From the IMG/VR virus record IMGVR_UViG_3300035701_000180, positions 1 through 31,212 of that record: DNA of 31,212 nt. The stretch is one strand, 5' to 3'. This DNA is from a virus. This document shows, in pieces, positions 10,314-26,841 of this stretch (its first letter is position 1; the number at the start of each line of letters is the position of its first letter). The notes beneath the pieces are model-generated. The model ran no database searches. It saw only the letters and a program-made list of their open reading frames with translations, and was not told the DNA's origin. The translations under genes and the position numbers were made by a program.

Positions 10314-12398
10314 CTATGTTAATTGCGGCAAATCGCTTAAAAATCCCTTTCTGTCTTCCCTGTCCTCGAGCTTTATTATCGGGGGCGCCGGTTCCGCCTT
10401 CGCCCTCATATTCTGTATCCCCTTATAGAACGCCGCCGCGGTGGCATAGACCGCCGTATCGAAGAAGTGCGTCGCCGCTCCCCTCGATGCCGGCTGCCAG
10501 ACGTATTTTTTCAGCCCTGTTTTCCTGTCCGTGATGGGTACAAGTTTTTCATTCGTGAACTCCGTGGCGTAATAACTCGGAATTTCGGCGTAGAATTGCG
10601 TCATTGGCGGGCGGACCAGTTTCGGCTTGCCGCCCGCCGCATCCTCCTCATAGGTCGGCTCCGCCCAGCTCGTCACCTGGTTCTTGAAATAGTATGTATC
10701 AATGATAATAAGCTGCATGCCCTTATACCACATCCGGGAATGCCGGCTCCTTATTCTCCGTTCCGTAGCGACCTCGAGATCGCTCATCCTCAACGGCTTC
10801 ATCAGCGGCCCCTCTTCTCCTTTTATCGGGATTGTTATTCCCGGCCTTCGCCGGCAATAATTATAGACATCATCCGGCTCGAACCCTGAATCGATGAACG
10901 CGCAGCAGGGTCCGAGCGGCGATTTCTGGTCCGCCGCCGTGCCATCTGACCATGGGAATGGCGTCCCGAATATCCGTTCATCGAACTCATCGAAGTTGCT
11001 CGCCCAGCCGGAATCGATAACGTAGTTCTTGCCCGCTATCTTTTTCTTCTCTCCTTTTTCATCGGTCACATATTTATCGAGTGCGAACCCCCTCACCTCG
11101 AAGTCGATTCTTATAATGCCCTTGACCTCGCTTTTATGGTAGTCCGCCCCGACCGTAAGCATAACGCAGTCGGCGGGCACCGTATGCGCCGAGAAAAATC
11201 CTTCAAGCTTACGGACATCCGATGCCCTCAATTGCTTGCCCTGCGGCTCGTACGGCTCGCCGTCGTATGCGTTTGAAAAGTCCATTCTTTTGCCGCGTGC
11301 AATTCCCTCTTCGGTATTCGCCTCGAACCATGCCGCCATAATCCGGCACCATCTGACCAGCTCGAACGGGCTGACTACCGACGATATCGCAAACCCGCTC
11401 TTGCGTTTCGTTCTTTTCGGCTCGCCTTTTGTTTTGCCGTTGGCGTCGAGGAAAAGGCCCTCCGGCAGCCAGATACCGGCCGCGACTAATTTCGGCTTCT
11501 CTATTTCCTCGATTTTTTTCCCGCAGACCTCGCATTCGTACCAGACATCGTTTTTTGCGATGATTTCGTCCGGCTCTCTCAACGTCTTCGGCACCCGGAT
11601 TTGAGAGCATTTCCAAACCCGGTACTCGCCGCAGTGCGGGCAGGGTATGTAATATCTTTGCATATTCGAGTCATCGTATGCCTGGTAGATATACCCGTTT
11701 CTTGTCGTCGGCGTGCAGGCCATTACTATTTTCCTGTCCCACCAAGTCGTAGTCCTTTTCTCGCCGAGGTCGATGGGGTTCGCCTCCCGTCCTGAGAACG
11801 GCGGGTATTTGTCCGGCTCGTCGAAAAATAGATAGCGGATCGATTTCTGGGCGAGTGCGGCGATTGACCCGGCGGAGGCGAAGTATATGGTCATGCGGTC
11901 CAAGTTATAGAAACTGCCCTGCAAATCACGCGGGGAGCCGGTGGTATGTTTTGTGAGCTGCATACTGTCGTATATCATCGGCTTGATTTTCTTCTCTCCG
12001 ACGAATCCGATATCGTCCTCAGTCGGCACAACCACCAGCGTCGGCCCCGGGTCCTGGTCGATAATATAACCCTGCATATTTTCAAGCGTCGTCGTCTTGG
12101 CGACCTGGGTCCCCGACATTATGACAATCCATTCGACCTCCGAATCCGTGAAGGCATCCATCGGACCGCGCATATAGGGCGTTATCTCGGAACTGTATTT
12201 GCCGGGAAACGCCCCTTCCGCAGGAAGATAGCGGTACTTGTCCGACCACTCGGTGACGGTCAATCTCTCCGGCGGCGCAAACGCCGCCCGCTCCGAAGGA
12301 GACCAGACTTCGCTTGATGATTGCCTGCCCTTCGCAGCCCTCGGCGTAGAAGGGTCTGTTTCAAATAACGTCTTCGTTTTCTCAAATCTTTTTGCCAT
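10314..12398 (-). CDS. Terminase large subunit, GpA family
   Basis: A 694-aa protein, full length for lambda GpA-type packaging ATPase-nucleases. The GpA opening (TVTEWSDKYRYLPAE... PGKYSSEITPYMRGPMDAF) is followed by Walker A-like SGTQVAKTT (residues 95-103) and Walker B YLFFDEPDK (about 189-197). A zinc-binding insertion has CPHC at 253-256 and CEVC at 289-292. The C-terminal nuclease domain follows from about residue 410 (VGADYH, CAFIDSGFEPDDVY). It drives DNA into the prohead and cuts the genome. The last residues, GFLSDLPQLT, recur at the N-terminus of the neighbouring zinc-ribbon protein. Confidence 0.95.
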   Translation of the reverse strand: MAKRFEKTKTLFETDPSTPRAAKGRQSSSEVWSPSERAAFAPPERLTVTEWSDKYRYLPAEGAFPGKYSSEITPYMRGPMDAFTDSEVEWIVIMSGTQVAKTTTLENMQGYIIDQDPGPTLVVVPTEDDIGFVGEKKIKPMIYDSMQLTKHTTGSPRDLQGSFYNLDRMTIYFASAGSIAALAQKSIRYLFFDEPDKYPPFSGREANPIDLGEKRTTTWWDRKIVMACTPTTRNGYIYQAYDDSNMQRYYIPCPHCGEYRVWKCSQIRVPKTLREPDEIIAKNDVWYECEVCGKKIEEIEKPKLVAAGIWLPEGLFLDANGKTKGEPKRTKRKSGFAISSVVSPFELVRWCRIMAAWFEANTEEGIARGKRMDFSNAYDGEPYEPQGKQLRASDVRKLEGFFSAHTVPADCVMLTVGADYHKSEVKGIIRIDFEVRGFALDKYVTDEKGEKKKIAGKNYVIDSGWASNFDEFDERIFGTPFPWSDGTAADQKSPLGPCCAFIDSGFEPDDVYNYCRRRPGITIPIKGEEGPLMKPLRMSDLEVATERRIRSRHSRMWYKGMQLIIIDTYYFKNQVTSWAEPTYEEDAAGGKPKLVRPPMTQFYAEIPSYYATEFTNEKLVPITDRKTGLKKYVWQPASRGAATHFFDTAVYATAAAFYKGIQNMRAKAEPAPPIIKLEDREDRKGFLSDLPQLT

Positions 12399-17455: not shown

Positions 17456-17533
17456 CTAATCGAAAATTCGTATATCGATGTATCGAAGTGAATCCCCGTC
17501 CTGTTTCACCGCCTTTAATGCTTTATTGGGCAT
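17456..17533 (-). CDS. Mini-ORF, 25 aa, following the D12 methyltransferase
   Basis: The ATG at 17533 is inside the conserved linker, 9 nt after the methyltransferase stop. The peptide MPNKALKAVKQDGDSLRYID has a repeat-like 3' end. A similar mini-ORF begins at the second linker (18667), and the third linker supplies the MPKK start of the 60-aa ORF. It may be a by-product of the linker rather than a functional gene. Confidence 0.25.
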   Translation of the reverse strand: MPNKALKAVKQDGDSLRYIDIRIFD

Positions 17534-17551
17534 TGAATCACTTCACTCACC
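17528..17551. repeat. 3' linker, copy 1
   Basis: A 24-nt module containing CATTGAATCACTTCACTCACC, present again at 18662-18685 and (one or two changes) 19068-19091. It supplies the final Gly-Glu-stop of the upstream gene and an ATG after it. Confidence 0.7.
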
Positions 17552-18535
17552 AACATCGAATAATCCTTTTTTCTCTTTTAGACAATGCGGGCTAATAAAC
17601 AGCTGCTCCCTGTGTCGGTTTATACTGCCTCTCGATTTTGCGTTGGAGTAGCCGCCCCCCGCCGACCACGCTTCAAATATCCAGCCATTATCCAGTAGCG
17701 TCTTGTATTCATCATCGTAACCAGCGGCAACAATGCGATAGTTAGGATTCCTGCCGCGTTCCAAACACCACACCTCAACATCCTTTGCTATGGTCATAGA
17801 ATCTTGCTGGTAAATCGCCTCATCTCTCCCGCTCGTCGCGTATGGTGGGTCAAGGAATATGCCGACTGGTTTGTTTCCGTCCTGCCAGTTACCACCGCAA
17901 ACCCGCGACCAATCGCCGCAGACAACTTTGATATTTCGCAAACGCCTCGATAGTGCGTTAATCCACTCGTAAACGCCCGCATCGCGGGGAAGGTGCGATA
18001 TCTTGCTTGTGATGCCCTTATTTTCGATAAGGTGCGGTATCTTGCTTGTTATGCCCTTATCGCCGGCAAGGTGCGGTCTCGCATTTGGGCGGGTAAGGCC
18101 CGAACCAATCCAGCAACTTGCCGCCCAAACCCAATATCCCGCAAGTTTGGCGTCGTGCCATTCGGGGTCATTTTGCAGATTGTTTATTAAATATCCCTCG
18201 TTTTCTGTAAGGATTTTGCGGCGGGCGTTCAAATCAGCGTGATTAACCGGCCAATCACACCACCGAGCGACCTCGTCGGGCGAAAACGCTATCGACCTCC
18301 AAACATTCGCGACAAAACCATCCTTGTCATTTACAATTTCGTAAATCTTGTTGAGTTTTGTCGGTGGACGTTTTAGCAAAACCGCACCACTGCCAAAAAA
18401 TGGCTCAATGTATTGTTTAACGTCCCCAAGATACGCCCAAACCCTGTCAGCTACCTTACCCTTGCCGCCGAAATACGGAAATGGGGCTTTAAGGGCTTTG
18501 TCCATCACAACATCTTTCGTTGGTTTATCTGTCAT
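17543..18535 (-). CDS. DNA adenine methyltransferase, D12 (Dam) class
   Basis: A 330-aa protein with the alpha-class order: PFPYFGGKGK near the start, FGSG at 47-50 for S-adenosylmethionine binding, and catalytic DPPY at 229-232. 'NIKVVCGDW' precedes the catalytic motif as in Dam-like enzymes. The recognition region carries a 13-residue tandem repeat (154-187). Start ATG 18535 has AAAGG at good spacing, within a 38-bp linker that is also present at the start of the MT-A70 gene. It methylates adenine N6, probably to protect phage DNA or to regulate it. No nuclease partner is seen. Confidence 0.9.
   Translation of the reverse strand: MTDKPTKDVVMDKALKAPFPYFGGKGKVADRVWAYLGDVKQYIEPFFGSGAVLLKRPPTKLNKIYEIVNDKDGFVANVWRSIAFSPDEVARWCDWPVNHADLNARRKILTENEGYLINNLQNDPEWHDAKLAGYWVWAASCWIGSGLTRPNARPHLAGDKGITSKIPHLIENKGITSKISHLPRDAGVYEWINALSRRLRNIKVVCGDWSRVCGGNWQDGNKPVGIFLDPPYATSGRDEAIYQQDSMTIAKDVEVWCLERGRNPNYRIVAAGYDDEYKTLLDNGWIFEAWSAGGGYSNAKSRGSINRHREQLFISPHCLKEKKGLFDVGE
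17975..18076 (-). repeat. 39-bp tandem repeat in the D12 methyltransferase
   Basis: It encodes PHLAGDKGITSKI, PHLIENKGITSKI and a partial SHLPRDAG. The first two units differ at three residues. It lies in the target-recognition region between FGSG and DPPY, where copy number changes could alter specificity. Confidence 0.75.
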
Positions 18536-18570
18536 ATTTTTACCTTTGGTGCGTCAGGTGATTCATTGCC
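18533..18570. repeat. 5' linker, copy 1
   Basis: A 38-nt module spanning the ribosome binding site and start codon of the D12 gene. It matches 19626-19663 at 36 of 38 positions by eye. On the minus strand it reads CACCAAAGGTAAAAATATG at its end. Confidence 0.75.
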
Positions 18571-18667
18571 CTTTATTGCCCGCCAAGATATTGATATCCT
18601 TTTTTCCCCCGCCAACAATTTCCAAAAAATCATCCAATTTCATTTTTCCTCTCCTTTTTTTGGGCAT
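18563..18667 (-). CDS. Mini-ORF, 34 aa (or 26 aa from an internal ATG)
   Basis: ATG 18667 lies in the linker; a better start is ATG 18643, behind AAAGGAGAGGAAAA. The shorter product begins MKLDDFLEIVGGGKK. The stop lies in the 5' linker of the D12 gene. The strong ribosome binding site suggests that it is translated. No family is recognised. Confidence 0.4.
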   Translation of the reverse strand: MPKKRRGKMKLDDFLEIVGGGKKDINILAGNKGQ

Positions 18668-18685
18668 TGAATCACTTCACTCACC
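18662..18685. repeat. 3' linker, copy 2
   Basis: Identical over 24 nt to 17528-17551. It follows the excisionase-like gene. Confidence 0.7.
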
Positions 18686-18904
18686 AGCACGACGAGTGCG
18701 TTGCCATTCTGATATTTTGTTCAAAGCAATTCTAACTTGTTCAGCATCAAAGTATCGTCTTCCGCCTTTTTGTTTATTTGGATTTACACTGTATTTTCCA
18801 GTCCCCACAAACGGGATTCGTCCTGATTTTGCCAGTTCATCGAGAAATTTTTGGGGCAGTCCCAAAAAAGCAGACAACGATTCTAATGAATCATATCCTC
18901 TCAC
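18677..18904 (-). CDS. Excisionase-like or MerR-type HTH protein, 75 aa
   Basis: GTG 18904 is preceded by GGGAGGTTATTT, a near-ideal ribosome binding site. The text 'ESLSAFLGLPQKFLDELAKSGRIPFV...RRYFDAEQVRIALNKI' has the winged helix-turn-helix pattern of excisionases and MerR-like DNA-binding domains, including the IP turn and the RYFDAEQV wing. It may be the directionality factor for the integrase or a regulator. The start overlaps the preceding ORF by 14 nt, and the gene ends in the conserved linker. Confidence 0.65.
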   Translation of the reverse strand: MRGYDSLESLSAFLGLPQKFLDELAKSGRIPFVGTGKYSVNPNKQKGGRRYFDAEQVRIALNKISEWQRTRRAGE

Positions 18905-19073
18905 AAATAACCTCCCTTTCTTTGAGTATCTTTACCACTTTTTGATAATCTTCTGGGGGTAATTCTGGAGGTTGTCTAAACCACAATTCCAAAAGCATAT
19001 CATTGGATAATTTGCTAAAATTTATTGACCACAATTTTTCTTCGCTTTTTTTATTCATATTTTTCTTTGGCAT
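18891..19073 (-). CDS. Small protein of unknown function, 60 aa
   Basis: ATG 19073 lies in the third copy of the 3' linker (MPKKNMNKK); ATG 19058 is an alternative. The text is mixed and helical (LSNDMLLELWFRQPPELPPEDYQKVVKILKER). It overlaps the next gene by 14 nt. No family is recognised, but the operon packing supports it. Confidence 0.55.
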   Translation of the reverse strand: MPKKNMNKKSEEKLWSINFSKLSNDMLLELWFRQPPELPPEDYQKVVKILKEREVICERI

Positions 19074-19091
19074 TGAATCATTTCACTCACC
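19068..19091. repeat. 3' linker, copy 3
   Basis: Matches 17528-17551 with two or so differences. It provides the end (Gly-Glu-stop) of the MT-A70 gene. Confidence 0.7.
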
Positions 19092-19628
19092 AAAGACAAT
19101 ATCGCTCTCAATTTCGTTTCCCCACACATCCCACCCTTCCGTTTTCTGGCGGGCGAACAGTTCTATACGGGGGAGGTCGCCGACTAACCTGATAATCTCG
19201 TTGCGTATTTGCGGGGGTTTCACAGAGTGTCGTCCACGCGGCCACATCTGAATCTGCTTGACCGATTTACACAATCGTTTAGGATGGCCGCGTTTGGCGA
19301 ACAAGCACAGTTCGGCATTGCCGTTTGTCCAGTGTCCCATACCAGAATAAATACCCTCGCCTAACGGGTTGAGTTTCACCCAAGTAAAAGCACAAGTTGT
19401 ATAAACAAATCCCCACGCTTTGATAACCACCAACGCCTCAGTGAGTTTGGGCATCGTGGCCCAGAGAAATAGAGAGCAGTTTTCATCGGCGATTGACACA
19501 ATAGGTAAATTACAGATGTCTTCATTAGACAGAACCGGATAGGTTATTCCGCCCATTGCGGGGTCGTTTCCTTTAGGGTCGTTATATCGCCACGGCGGGT
19601 CAGCATAGATTATCTGGTATTTCTTCAT
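19083..19628 (-). CDS. MT-A70 family adenine methyltransferase
   Basis: A 181-aa protein of the phage-type MT-A70 family: 'YQIIYADPPWRY' with catalytic DPPW at 10-13, 'LFLWATMPKLTEAL', 'GMGHWTNGNAELCLFAKRG', and the closing 'PRIELFARQKTEGWDVWGNEI'. It methylates adenine N6 in DNA. The ATG at 19628 overlaps the upstream stop (ATGA) and has AAAGG in the shared 5' linker. The 3' end lies in the shared 3' linker, so the gene is bracketed like the D12 gene although the two proteins are unrelated in order and fold class. Confidence 0.92.
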   Translation of the reverse strand: MKKYQIIYADPPWRYNDPKGNDPAMGGITYPVLSNEDICNLPIVSIADENCSLFLWATMPKLTEALVVIKAWGFVYTTCAFTWVKLNPLGEGIYSGMGHWTNGNAELCLFAKRGHPKRLCKSVKQIQMWPRGRHSVKPPQIRNEIIRLVGDLPRIELFARQKTEGWDVWGNEIESDIVFGE

Positions 19629-19990
19629 ATTTTTACCTTTGGTGCGTCAAATGATTCATTGCCTTTTCTTTCTGGTGTGTCAGCTATATCATTGCCTTTT
19701 TTTGCCGCTAAGGCACTAAGACATAAATCACACCACAAAGACGTAAATTTCTTTTGTGATTCGGGGTCTTCCTGATAAAAGGTTTGGCCACAATGTCCAA
19801 GACATTTGCGTTGAATTTGTCCTGTTGTAAGCCGTAAATCACTCAAATCTCCGTTGCAAATTGGACATTGAGCATTTGGTTCATAATGAATTTTTTCAAA
19901 TACGATAATTTTTTGACTATTGAACATTTTCCAAACCTCAAATCTAAAATCATTGTGTTCTTTATGTTTTTGGACCTTTGAACTATTCAT
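19625..19990 (-). CDS. Zinc-finger protein, 121 aa, with repeat-derived tail
   Basis: ATG 19990 is chosen because it overlaps the stop of the upstream gene by 8 nt and has GGAAA in front; a longer start at 20020 has no such site. Cys pairs CPIC and C-x3-C (KCLGHC) form a zinc ribbon in residues about 40-70. From 'FTSLWCDLCLSALAAKK' on, the protein is encoded by a G/T-periodic repeat, then by two related copies of GN-x5-DAP-like text within the 5' linker. Confidence 0.6.
   Translation of the reverse strand: MNSSKVQKHKEHNDFRFEVWKMFNSQKIIVFEKIHYEPNAQCPICNGDLSDLRLTTGQIQRKCLGHCGQTFYQEDPESQKKFTSLWCDLCLSALAAKKGNDIADTPERKGNESFDAPKVKI
19626..19663. repeat. 5' linker, copy 2
   Basis: Matches 18533-18570 at 36 of 38 positions. 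It covers the ribosome binding site and ATG of the MT-A70 gene. A partial copy follows at about 19676-19696. Confidence 0.75.
19704..19744. repeat. G/T-periodic repeat inside the zinc-finger gene
   Basis: GCTAAGGCACTAAGAC and CACCACAAAGACG text of the dispersed type. It is in frame and encodes SLWCDLCLSALAAK. Confidence 0.6.
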
Positions 19991-23738: not shown

Positions 23739-24044
23739 CTACGAACAACATCGCCCGACCCCGGCCCATATCCCCCACCTCCAACTTGGTTGCGCTTTGA
23801 ATGCATCGAGCGCCGCATAAAATCCTAAGCAGCATCCCATTCCGAGTATCATTATCCGATTTATTGGCAAATTGCGGGCATCATATCTCCGGGTGGCCTT
23901 ACATGTCCCCGTGTATTGTTTTGTAAAATTGCAGGCATCATATATCCAGGTACCCTTGTATTTTTTAAGCGCGACCGGACACCGAAATTCGCCCGCAAAT
24001 TTGCCTCTTTGCGCGCGACTTTTGGTGACCGCAGTGCTGTATGT
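23739..24044 (-). pseudogene. Cys-containing ORF without a usable start, possibly broken
   Basis: The frame is open from a TGA at 24045-24047 to TAG at 23739. It has credible protein text (GEFRCPVALKKYKGTWIYD, then ACNFTKQYTGTCKATRRYDA) with three Cys in zinc-finger-like spacing, then a hydrophobic segment (MILGMGCCLGFYAALDAF). The only ATG is at 23852, which gives 37 aa. A frameshift from the overlapping frame upstream could restore a longer gene. 'LPINRI' in the middle matches the N-termini of both beta-class methyltransferases. Confidence 0.35.
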
Positions 24045-25379: not shown

Positions 25380-25607
25380 TCAAATTTCAGTTACCTCAAG
25401 TATTGCCATATCGAAATCGTATTTCCTGCACGGCCGCACACCTGGCAGGACTTCCGCCCTCGTTTTGCCTGGGCACCTCTTGCCTGTGAACTTGCCTGTG
25501 AACTCGATGCACTCCGCGCACATCGGCGCCATGCAACCAATGGGTTGTTTTGTTTGTGGTTTGTCAACTTTTCGCACAGAAACATTTTCAAATGTCAACT
25601 GATTCAT
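25380..25607 (-). CDS. Small Cys protein, 75 aa
   Basis: ATG 25607 overlaps the stop of the upstream gene. Four Cys (GCMAPMCAEC at about residues 26-35, then RCPGK) and basic patches suggest a metal-binding fold. The protein begins MNQLTFENVSVRK. No family is recognised. Confidence 0.6.
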   Translation of the reverse strand: MNQLTFENVSVRKVDKPQTKQPIGCMAPMCAECIEFTGKFTGKRCPGKTRAEVLPGVRPCRKYDFDMAILEVTEI

Positions 25608-25780
25608 AATTTGCCTTCTAAGGCAGCTGCAACCACCCTTAGAAAAGAATCGAGGATGTATTCCCCTGGGGGCAGTTCTATACAACCCACAGGGATTGTT
25701 AACAGCAATCGTTCGGCCTTTGGTTTATTGGCGATTTTTCTCAATTCTTTCGCAATTTCTGATGCTGCTGTTTTTTCCAT
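25604..25780 (-). CDS. Small protein, 58 aa
   Basis: ATG 25780 has AGAAAGGATAAAATTT upstream. The text is helical at first (MEKTAASEIAKELRKIANKPK), then hydrophobic and proline-containing (LLLTIPVGCIELPPGEYIL). It is coupled to the next gene (TTATGA). No family is recognised. Confidence 0.6.
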   Translation of the reverse strand: MEKTAASEIAKELRKIANKPKAERLLLTIPVGCIELPPGEYILDSFLRVVAAALEGKL

Positions 25781-25807
25781 AAATTTTATCCTTTCTCTTA
25801 CGCCAAA

Positions 25808-25881
25808 TTGCGGGGGCAGGATTCGAACCTGCGTTCTTCTGGTTATGGGCCAGATGAGATACCGGACTTCTCTACCCCGCG
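25808..25881 (-). tRNA. tRNA-Met(CAT), initiator type
   Basis: A full cloverleaf is visible. The acceptor stem is CGCGGGG / CCCCGCA with the C1-A72 mismatch that marks bacterial initiators. The D stem GAGA / TCTC has the A11-U24 pair. The anticodon arm is TCTGG / CCAGA with loop CCCATAA (anticodon CAT). The T arm is GCAGG-TTCGAAT-CCTGC. CCA is not encoded. Two features are odd: position 33 is C instead of the near-universal U, and the third G-C pair of the anticodon stem is U-A. This points to a divergent, phage-carried initiator rather than the host's standard gene. Confidence 0.88.
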
Positions 25882-25886
25882 ATAAA

Positions 25887-25915
25887 AGACGGGCCTCGCT
25901 ACGATGGGCCCGTCT
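25887..25915 (-). terminator. Hairpin with U-tract just before the tRNA
   Basis: AGACGGGCC (25887-25895) pairs with GGCCCGTCT (25907-25915), and the minus-strand transcript continues TTTT. It could end transcription ahead of the tRNA or guide its processing. Confidence 0.6.
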
Positions 25916-25946
25916 CAGGAGGGGAGAAAAACTCATTGATAATTCC

Positions 25947-26180
25947 GGGCCGGTTTACACTCCGGCCCTGTCTGAATCTGAATGCCTTAAGAGTCCGGGG
26001 CGGCCTGGTCAGGGTCGCCCGTAAACAAAAGGAATCGCTTATGAGGCCAAAAACCAGATTCCCAAAAAAAGAATCTGGCTTCGGAGGAGGGTGATGAAAA
26101 GCCTCTTTTGAAAAATGCTGTCGGGCGGGGCGTCGTATAAAAGCCAAACGGTCATCCCGTTCTTGGGCCGCCGACAGCAT
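25947..26180. other. Hairpin array in a gene-free region
   Basis: 25882-26463 has no convincing gene. It holds four further stems after the one at 25887: GGGCCGG / CCGGCCC (25947-25968); a 9-bp stem 25998-26020 with loop GGTCA; CCAGATTC / GAATCTGG (26054-26078); and a 13-bp stem with one bulge enclosing 26115-26180. Such density is unusual and suggests a structured leader or non-coding RNA. Confidence 0.5.
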
Positions 26181-26428
26181 AATGCGAAATTTGTTGATTA
26201 TTGTATACGTGGGCAGTTGTGGTCGCAGAGGAGCACGGAGGTTTCCCTCGTAGAAAGAAGGTTGATTGATATGTTTTGTTCTATTCGACCTCGTCTGACT
26301 TTGCACCATCAATTGCACTCCATAAAACTGTCGGTATTATCGGCGCGCCAAGGCGCTTTGCAACACAAAAATCAAAATTTTCACGCCCGCCTGCAAAAAA
26401 GCACCATAACTATTTATTACATAAAGAC

Positions 26429-26456
26429 TTGCGGTTGCGAAAAATTCTTCTATATT
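26429..26456 (+). promoter_or_regulatory. Candidate promoter for the plus-strand block
   Basis: TTGCGG (26429-26434), 16-nt spacer, TATATT (26451-26456). Transcription would begin near 26463-26464, right at the second ATG of the ORF, so the mRNA would be leaderless or nearly so. Confidence 0.45.
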
Positions 26457-26463
26457 TATGGAT

Positions 26464-26841
26464 ATGGGCACAACTGCACAACGTGTTTTGACTAATGTCG
26501 CCGAGGTTCTGGCCGAACGGTTCGCCCAGAGATACGGCAGTTTGAAGTCGGTATTATCGGCAGGCGTTGTCGCATTCAGCAAGTTGACTCCCGTCGAGCG
26601 CGAAAAAACGCTTGATGAGGCCAACGGAATAAAGTATGATGACCCTTCGCAGCAAGCCGCCGAAGATGTCCGGTTTGTGATAAAAAAGTGGCAGATTATG
26701 AACGATAAAGAACGAGCCATTGCCCTTCAATTCCTGTCAGCCGACGAGAGCCGGGCCATCCGTGAAATGCTTAACGCCCTCGACCCTGAAATCCAGGCCG
26801 CTCGCAGACAGAAGGTTCGCAAGTCATCTAAAATCGCTTAG
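26464..26841 (+). CDS. Plus-strand protein of unknown function, 125 aa
   Basis: The frame opens at ATG 26458, but ATG 26464 coincides with the predicted transcript start; neither has a ribosome binding site. The text is helical and charged (LTNVAEVLAERFAQRYG, VEREKTLDEANGIKYDDPSQQAAEDVRFVIKKWQI, DKERAIALQFLSADESRAIREML) with a basic C-terminus (RRQKVRKSSK). Opposite strand, leaderless start and small size would suit a lysogeny regulator, but no helix-turn-helix is recognised. Confidence 0.6.
   Translation: MGTTAQRVLTNVAEVLAERFAQRYGSLKSVLSAGVVAFSKLTPVEREKTLDEANGIKYDDPSQQAAEDVRFVIKKWQIMNDKERAIALQFLSADESRAIREMLNALDPEIQAARRQKVRKSSKIA

Follow-up and report, generated by a model that had tools for sequence, protein, structure and literature searches.

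An initiator-type tRNA(CAU) gene with C33 in a partial temperate phage genome of probable Phycisphaerae host range

The window, meaning the whole stretch of 31,212 nucleotides analysed here, is an entire IMG/VR record (IMGVR_UViG_3300035701_000180); it is linear and partial, without host chromosome. Its genes include those for the head and for packaging, one for a tail assembly chaperone, several for DNA methyltransferases and one for an integrase. A near-identical contig, which ends at window position 24029 and so leaves the tRNA stretch outside it, reaches ~7 kb beyond the left end of the window, and we therefore take the phage to be larger than the record. Short direct repeats are present in the early region (17522–17555, 18656–18689 and 19062–19095), as is a second set (18532–18577 and 19625–19670).

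Between the integrase gene and the right end lies a complete tRNA(CAU) gene of the initiator type (Table 1). ARAGORN called it as tRNA-Met(cat) at 25807–25882 on the minus strand, and Rfam RF00005 matched it with 61.3 bits (gathering score 29; E 3.9e-11). A possible small open reading frame lies directly downstream on the same strand. The 5′ end of the tRNA is preceded, at a distance of ~5 nt, by a terminator-like hairpin that may bear on how the gene is transcribed; this hairpin was absent from the matches of the consensus scan.

Table 1. Positions of the features discussed, in window coordinates.
Feature	Position	Strand	Basis or remark
Terminase large subunit; query for relatives and likely host group	10314..12398	-	Protein search
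Tyrosine recombinase/integrase, 240 aa	24357..25079	-	Within the G354 prophage, an internal recombinase matches best
Possible small ORF, ~58 aa from an internal ATG; AAAGGA 8 nt upstream	25605..25781	-	Read by eye
Initiator-type tRNA(CAU): C1×A72, A11-U24, C33, U29-A41/G30-C40/G31-C39, no encoded CCA	25808..25881	-	ARAGORN, Rfam, fold, comparison
Hairpin with U-run; G+C-rich, stable, terminator-like	25886..25916	-	-19.8 kcal/mol, z -4.3
Motif GCTTCGGAGGAGGGTGATGAAAAGCCTCTTT, also conserved next to the tRNA of the G154 prophage	26078..26110	+	Sequence comparison

The tRNA reads CGCGGGG UA GAGA AGUCCGGUA UCUC A UCUGG from the acceptor to the anticodon stem, and CCCAUAA CCAGA AGAAC GCAGG UUCGAAU CCUGC CCCCGCA A from the anticodon loop to the 3′ end. 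It folds as a cloverleaf (z -2.9) and, like the related Phycisphaerae host genes, does not encode CCA. Positions 1 and 72 form no Watson–Crick pair, and this mismatch, together with A11-U24 and the CAU anticodon, is that of a bacterial-type initiator. An earlier note on this DNA, which had described an initiator with these bases, is exact at base level. It was also right that the loop has C33 and that the anticodon stem has lost one of the three initiator G-C pairs: of pairs 29–31:39–41, two are kept and U29-A41 replaces G29-C41. The three pairs are conserved, not strictly required, and unconventional initiators exist (PMC10568206).

Terminase relatives at 58, 48, 47 and 41% were found in genomes of the same Phycisphaerae order, and three of the four genomes with the closest prophage terminases (G316, G354 and G154, not G393) have C33 initiators. 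Judged from these relatives and from C33, the host is most likely a member of the Phycisphaerae (Planctomycetota). The tRNAs of Elusimicrobia resemble the window tRNA in C33 and in the D arm, yet no more than three terminase matches, all of them partial and none above 31%, came from 196 genomes of that group, and the Phycisphaerae are preferred for this reason. A search of viral contigs with the integrase gave no relatives. In 37 further viral relatives no tRNA was seen within up to about 10 kb of the terminase on each side, a reach that falls short of the 13 kb separating tRNA and terminase in the window. The tRNA is also missing from the 35.7-kb record of a distant relative, G002, which runs from a homologue of 26458–26841 at its start to an integrase homologue at its end; the break in this record thus falls at the expected place of the tRNA.

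The earlier note took C33 to be abnormal, a description that does not hold for the likely host clade. C33 CAU tRNAs are carried by 64 of 161 genomes of the order to which G154 belongs, these being mostly among the genomes listed first, and in four genomes (G004–G007) the C33 tRNA is the sole copy matching the broader CAU pattern. What had been read as a loop defect is thus the native state in some genomes of one bacterial order. Most other Phycisphaerae that were read have U33. When genomes were scanned for C33 tRNAs in which two G-C pairs adjoin the loop, at least 113 stretches matched, some of them elongator-like, with Patescibacteria, Elusimicrobia, Phycisphaerae, Leuconostocaceae, Erysipelotrichaceae and archaea among the matches listed. 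Additional initiator-type tRNAs occur in Planctomycetota on contigs with phage-like genes (G010:C193, L679; G034:C251, L682; G639:C389, L686). The extra copy has C33 in G034 and in G639, where the copy presumed to be the host's has U33; inheritance from the present host therefore does not account for C33 in every case.

The suggestion that the gene is a decaying copy left by integration was set against a comparison, over 74 positions, with the commonest C33 initiator of the Phycisphaerae clade. Ten positions differ. Pairs 13:22 (C-G to A-U) and 29:41 (G-C to U-A) have changed on both sides, and 27:43 has changed on one side, from U-G to a standard U-A pair. All helices are kept, 1:72 is still mismatched, and the tertiary pairs 8:14, 15:48, 18:55, 19:56 and 54:58 are intact. 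Because every helix is kept and two pairs have changed on both sides, we conclude that the tRNA is not decayed. This pattern resembles what selection for function would leave, as far as a single comparison, which gives no rate, can indicate. No base of the anticodon loop differs from that of the C33 clade taken as the likely host group. The remainder of the tRNA does not decide its source: at 64/74, the U33 initiator L404 from Phycisphaerae is as close as the C33 one, and L013, another phage tRNA, exceeds both with 66/74.

The same changes bear on the idea that the tRNA is a passenger, acquired at little or no cost and without effect on phage growth. Its patchy occurrence among relatives and the hairpin upstream would fit such a gene. 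However, helix-preserving two-sided changes, with the initiator determinants kept after 10 substitutions, speak against it, and an initiator with C33 and U29-A41 recurs in a prophage with a terminase only ~40% identical. We consider a passenger quite improbable.

That prophage, in G154, has its terminase, its integrase and its C33, U29-A41 initiator on one contig, the tRNA being on the same strand. The host's own initiator, also C33, is intact 36 kb away at C8:91945, and the prophage tRNA is therefore not attB. Nor is it repeated at the other end of the prophage, where the ends share only 11-base repeats; of these, ACATATATTAT, at 11098 and 56714, is a weak att candidate. In G354, a prophage of ~39.8 kb related to the window phage is bounded by a 49-bp repeat (G354:C28 2466 and 42285; L469, L471) in tRNA-Pro(GGG), and no initiator tRNA lies between the repeats.

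These prophages also bear on whether the window tRNA could serve as the core of attP, or be what an att event left behind in a host tRNA-fMet gene. The integrase gene is ~730 bp away with the tRNA 3′ end facing it, 24 nt of the 3′ half (positions 48–71) are identical to the host gene, and the G354 prophage does use a tRNA gene for integration. Nevertheless, identity to the host gene ends at position 72, all pairs are retained, unlike in a remnant, and the window integrase is closer to the internal recombinase of G354 than to the att-adjacent one. Given in addition the G154 arrangement, in which an intact host initiator accompanies an unrepeated prophage copy, an integration-site origin is very improbable, and the earlier suggestion of a decaying copy left by integration is not supported.

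Phage-borne initiator tRNAs were said to be rare, which is true only in part. Of 50,697 phage records, 69 cover at least 80% of the window tRNA at E ≤ 1e-5, a count that includes any elongator matches, and scans of viral collections for such tRNAs gave at least about 120 contigs. No viral contig exactly matches the first 44 nt of the window tRNA. A sample of viral tRNAs was drawn with a pattern in which part of the D arm and CATAA were fixed, and the anticodon stem and position 33 left free; 80 matches listed were read, 74 of them well formed and 61 initiator-like in having a 1:72 mismatch. Among these 61 listed tRNAs, G-C is present at 29:41 in 20, at 30:40 in 58 and at 31:39 in 47; all three pairs are G-C in 15, and five have C33. 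The same pattern in Planctomycetota gave all three G-C pairs in 136 of 150 matches listed, counted from rows, and C33 in just one of them, which is itself a second copy in its genome. Fisher tests were used to compare the two sets; since the viral set mixes phages of many hosts, the p-values overstate a like-for-like contrast, which is to be read as indicative. Loss of G-C at 29:41 is thus common among the phage initiators listed.

As a set, phage initiator tRNAs may be marked by a relaxed anticodon stem, in which 29:41 varies and 30:40 is kept, and by occasional C33, a base that would have become the norm for initiators in some members of a Phycisphaerae order; this would imply initiators with altered P-site or nuclease properties. 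We put this forward as a tentative possibility. Variable 29:41 with 30:40 kept is a comparative result that can be tested in initiation assays and, if the P-site behaviour or the nuclease sensitivity of phage initiators as a set does differ, it bears on why phages carry tRNAs.

The difference in the anticodon arm between phage and host initiators as sets also accords with a rival reading, in which the tRNA is a spare that evades a host anticodon nuclease (VapC/PrrC-like) cutting the host initiator. Phage tRNAs altered in the anticodon loop at nuclease sites have been described (eLife 2023, PMC10264068), and a VapC acting on initiator tRNA has been reported (PMC4105405). Like those nuclease-evading tRNAs, the window tRNA differs from the host in the anticodon arm; unlike theirs, its loop is that of the likely host clade. 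Because C33 and the rest of the loop match that clade, the loop would give the phage copy no protection there, and for a C33 host this base is an unlikely means of escape. In addition, no RNA-ligase family was matched among the proteins scanned, and the eLife study states that, where the anticodon itself is the VapC-LT2 target, phages as a rule do not encode tRNA-fMet (PMC10264068). A nuclease-resistant spare is unlikely overall, some weight being kept for changes other than C33.

The explanation that we favour, and think probable, is that the gene encodes a functional initiator tRNA, derived from a host lineage and carried by a temperate phage most likely infecting Phycisphaerae, which supplements the initiator pool of the host. 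Its source would probably have been a host-lineage initiator gene already with C33, from which G29-C41 would have been lost through a two-sided change; C1×A72, A11-U24, G30-C40 and G31-C39, the determinants for formylation and the P site, would have been retained. Extra initiator tRNA made during infection could then keep phage translation going if the host's own supply runs short or is damaged. Against this stand the hairpin upstream, the G034 and G639 genomes with their U33 host copies, and the fact that the tRNA was not seen in most terminase relatives, within the flanks covered, nor in G002.

Comparable tRNAs are known. A tRNA-fMet has been reported in phiLM21-like prophages of Sinorhizobium (PMC12429752), and these, like the Caulobacter phages CcrSC and phiCbK and the window phage, carry an initiator-type CAU tRNA. 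The initiators of phiLM21, CcrSC and phiCbK share U29-A41 with G30-C40 and G31-C39, but have U33 where the window tRNA has C33. In the metazoan (eukaryotic) initiator, C33 replaces the conserved U33 as it does here (PMC9023262), whereas the C1×A72 mismatch and A11-U24 of the window tRNA are bacterial. The unconventional initiators of Mycoplasma pneumoniae (AU/GC/GU) have likewise lost the first G-C pair of the anticodon stem (PMC10568206); the window tRNA, unlike these, retains G-C at the third pair and has C33.

On the plus strand, the motif at 26078–26110, GCTTCGGAGGAGGGTGATGAAAAGC, is preceded by a hairpin and followed by a tiny reading frame (MKSLF). An Rfam search of 25850–26460 at a relaxed threshold gave a single weak match, far under its gathering score. 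The motif is similar in G154, where it adjoins the prophage initiator tRNA, and in L326, and less closely so in L673; it is possibly a leader or a shared regulatory element.
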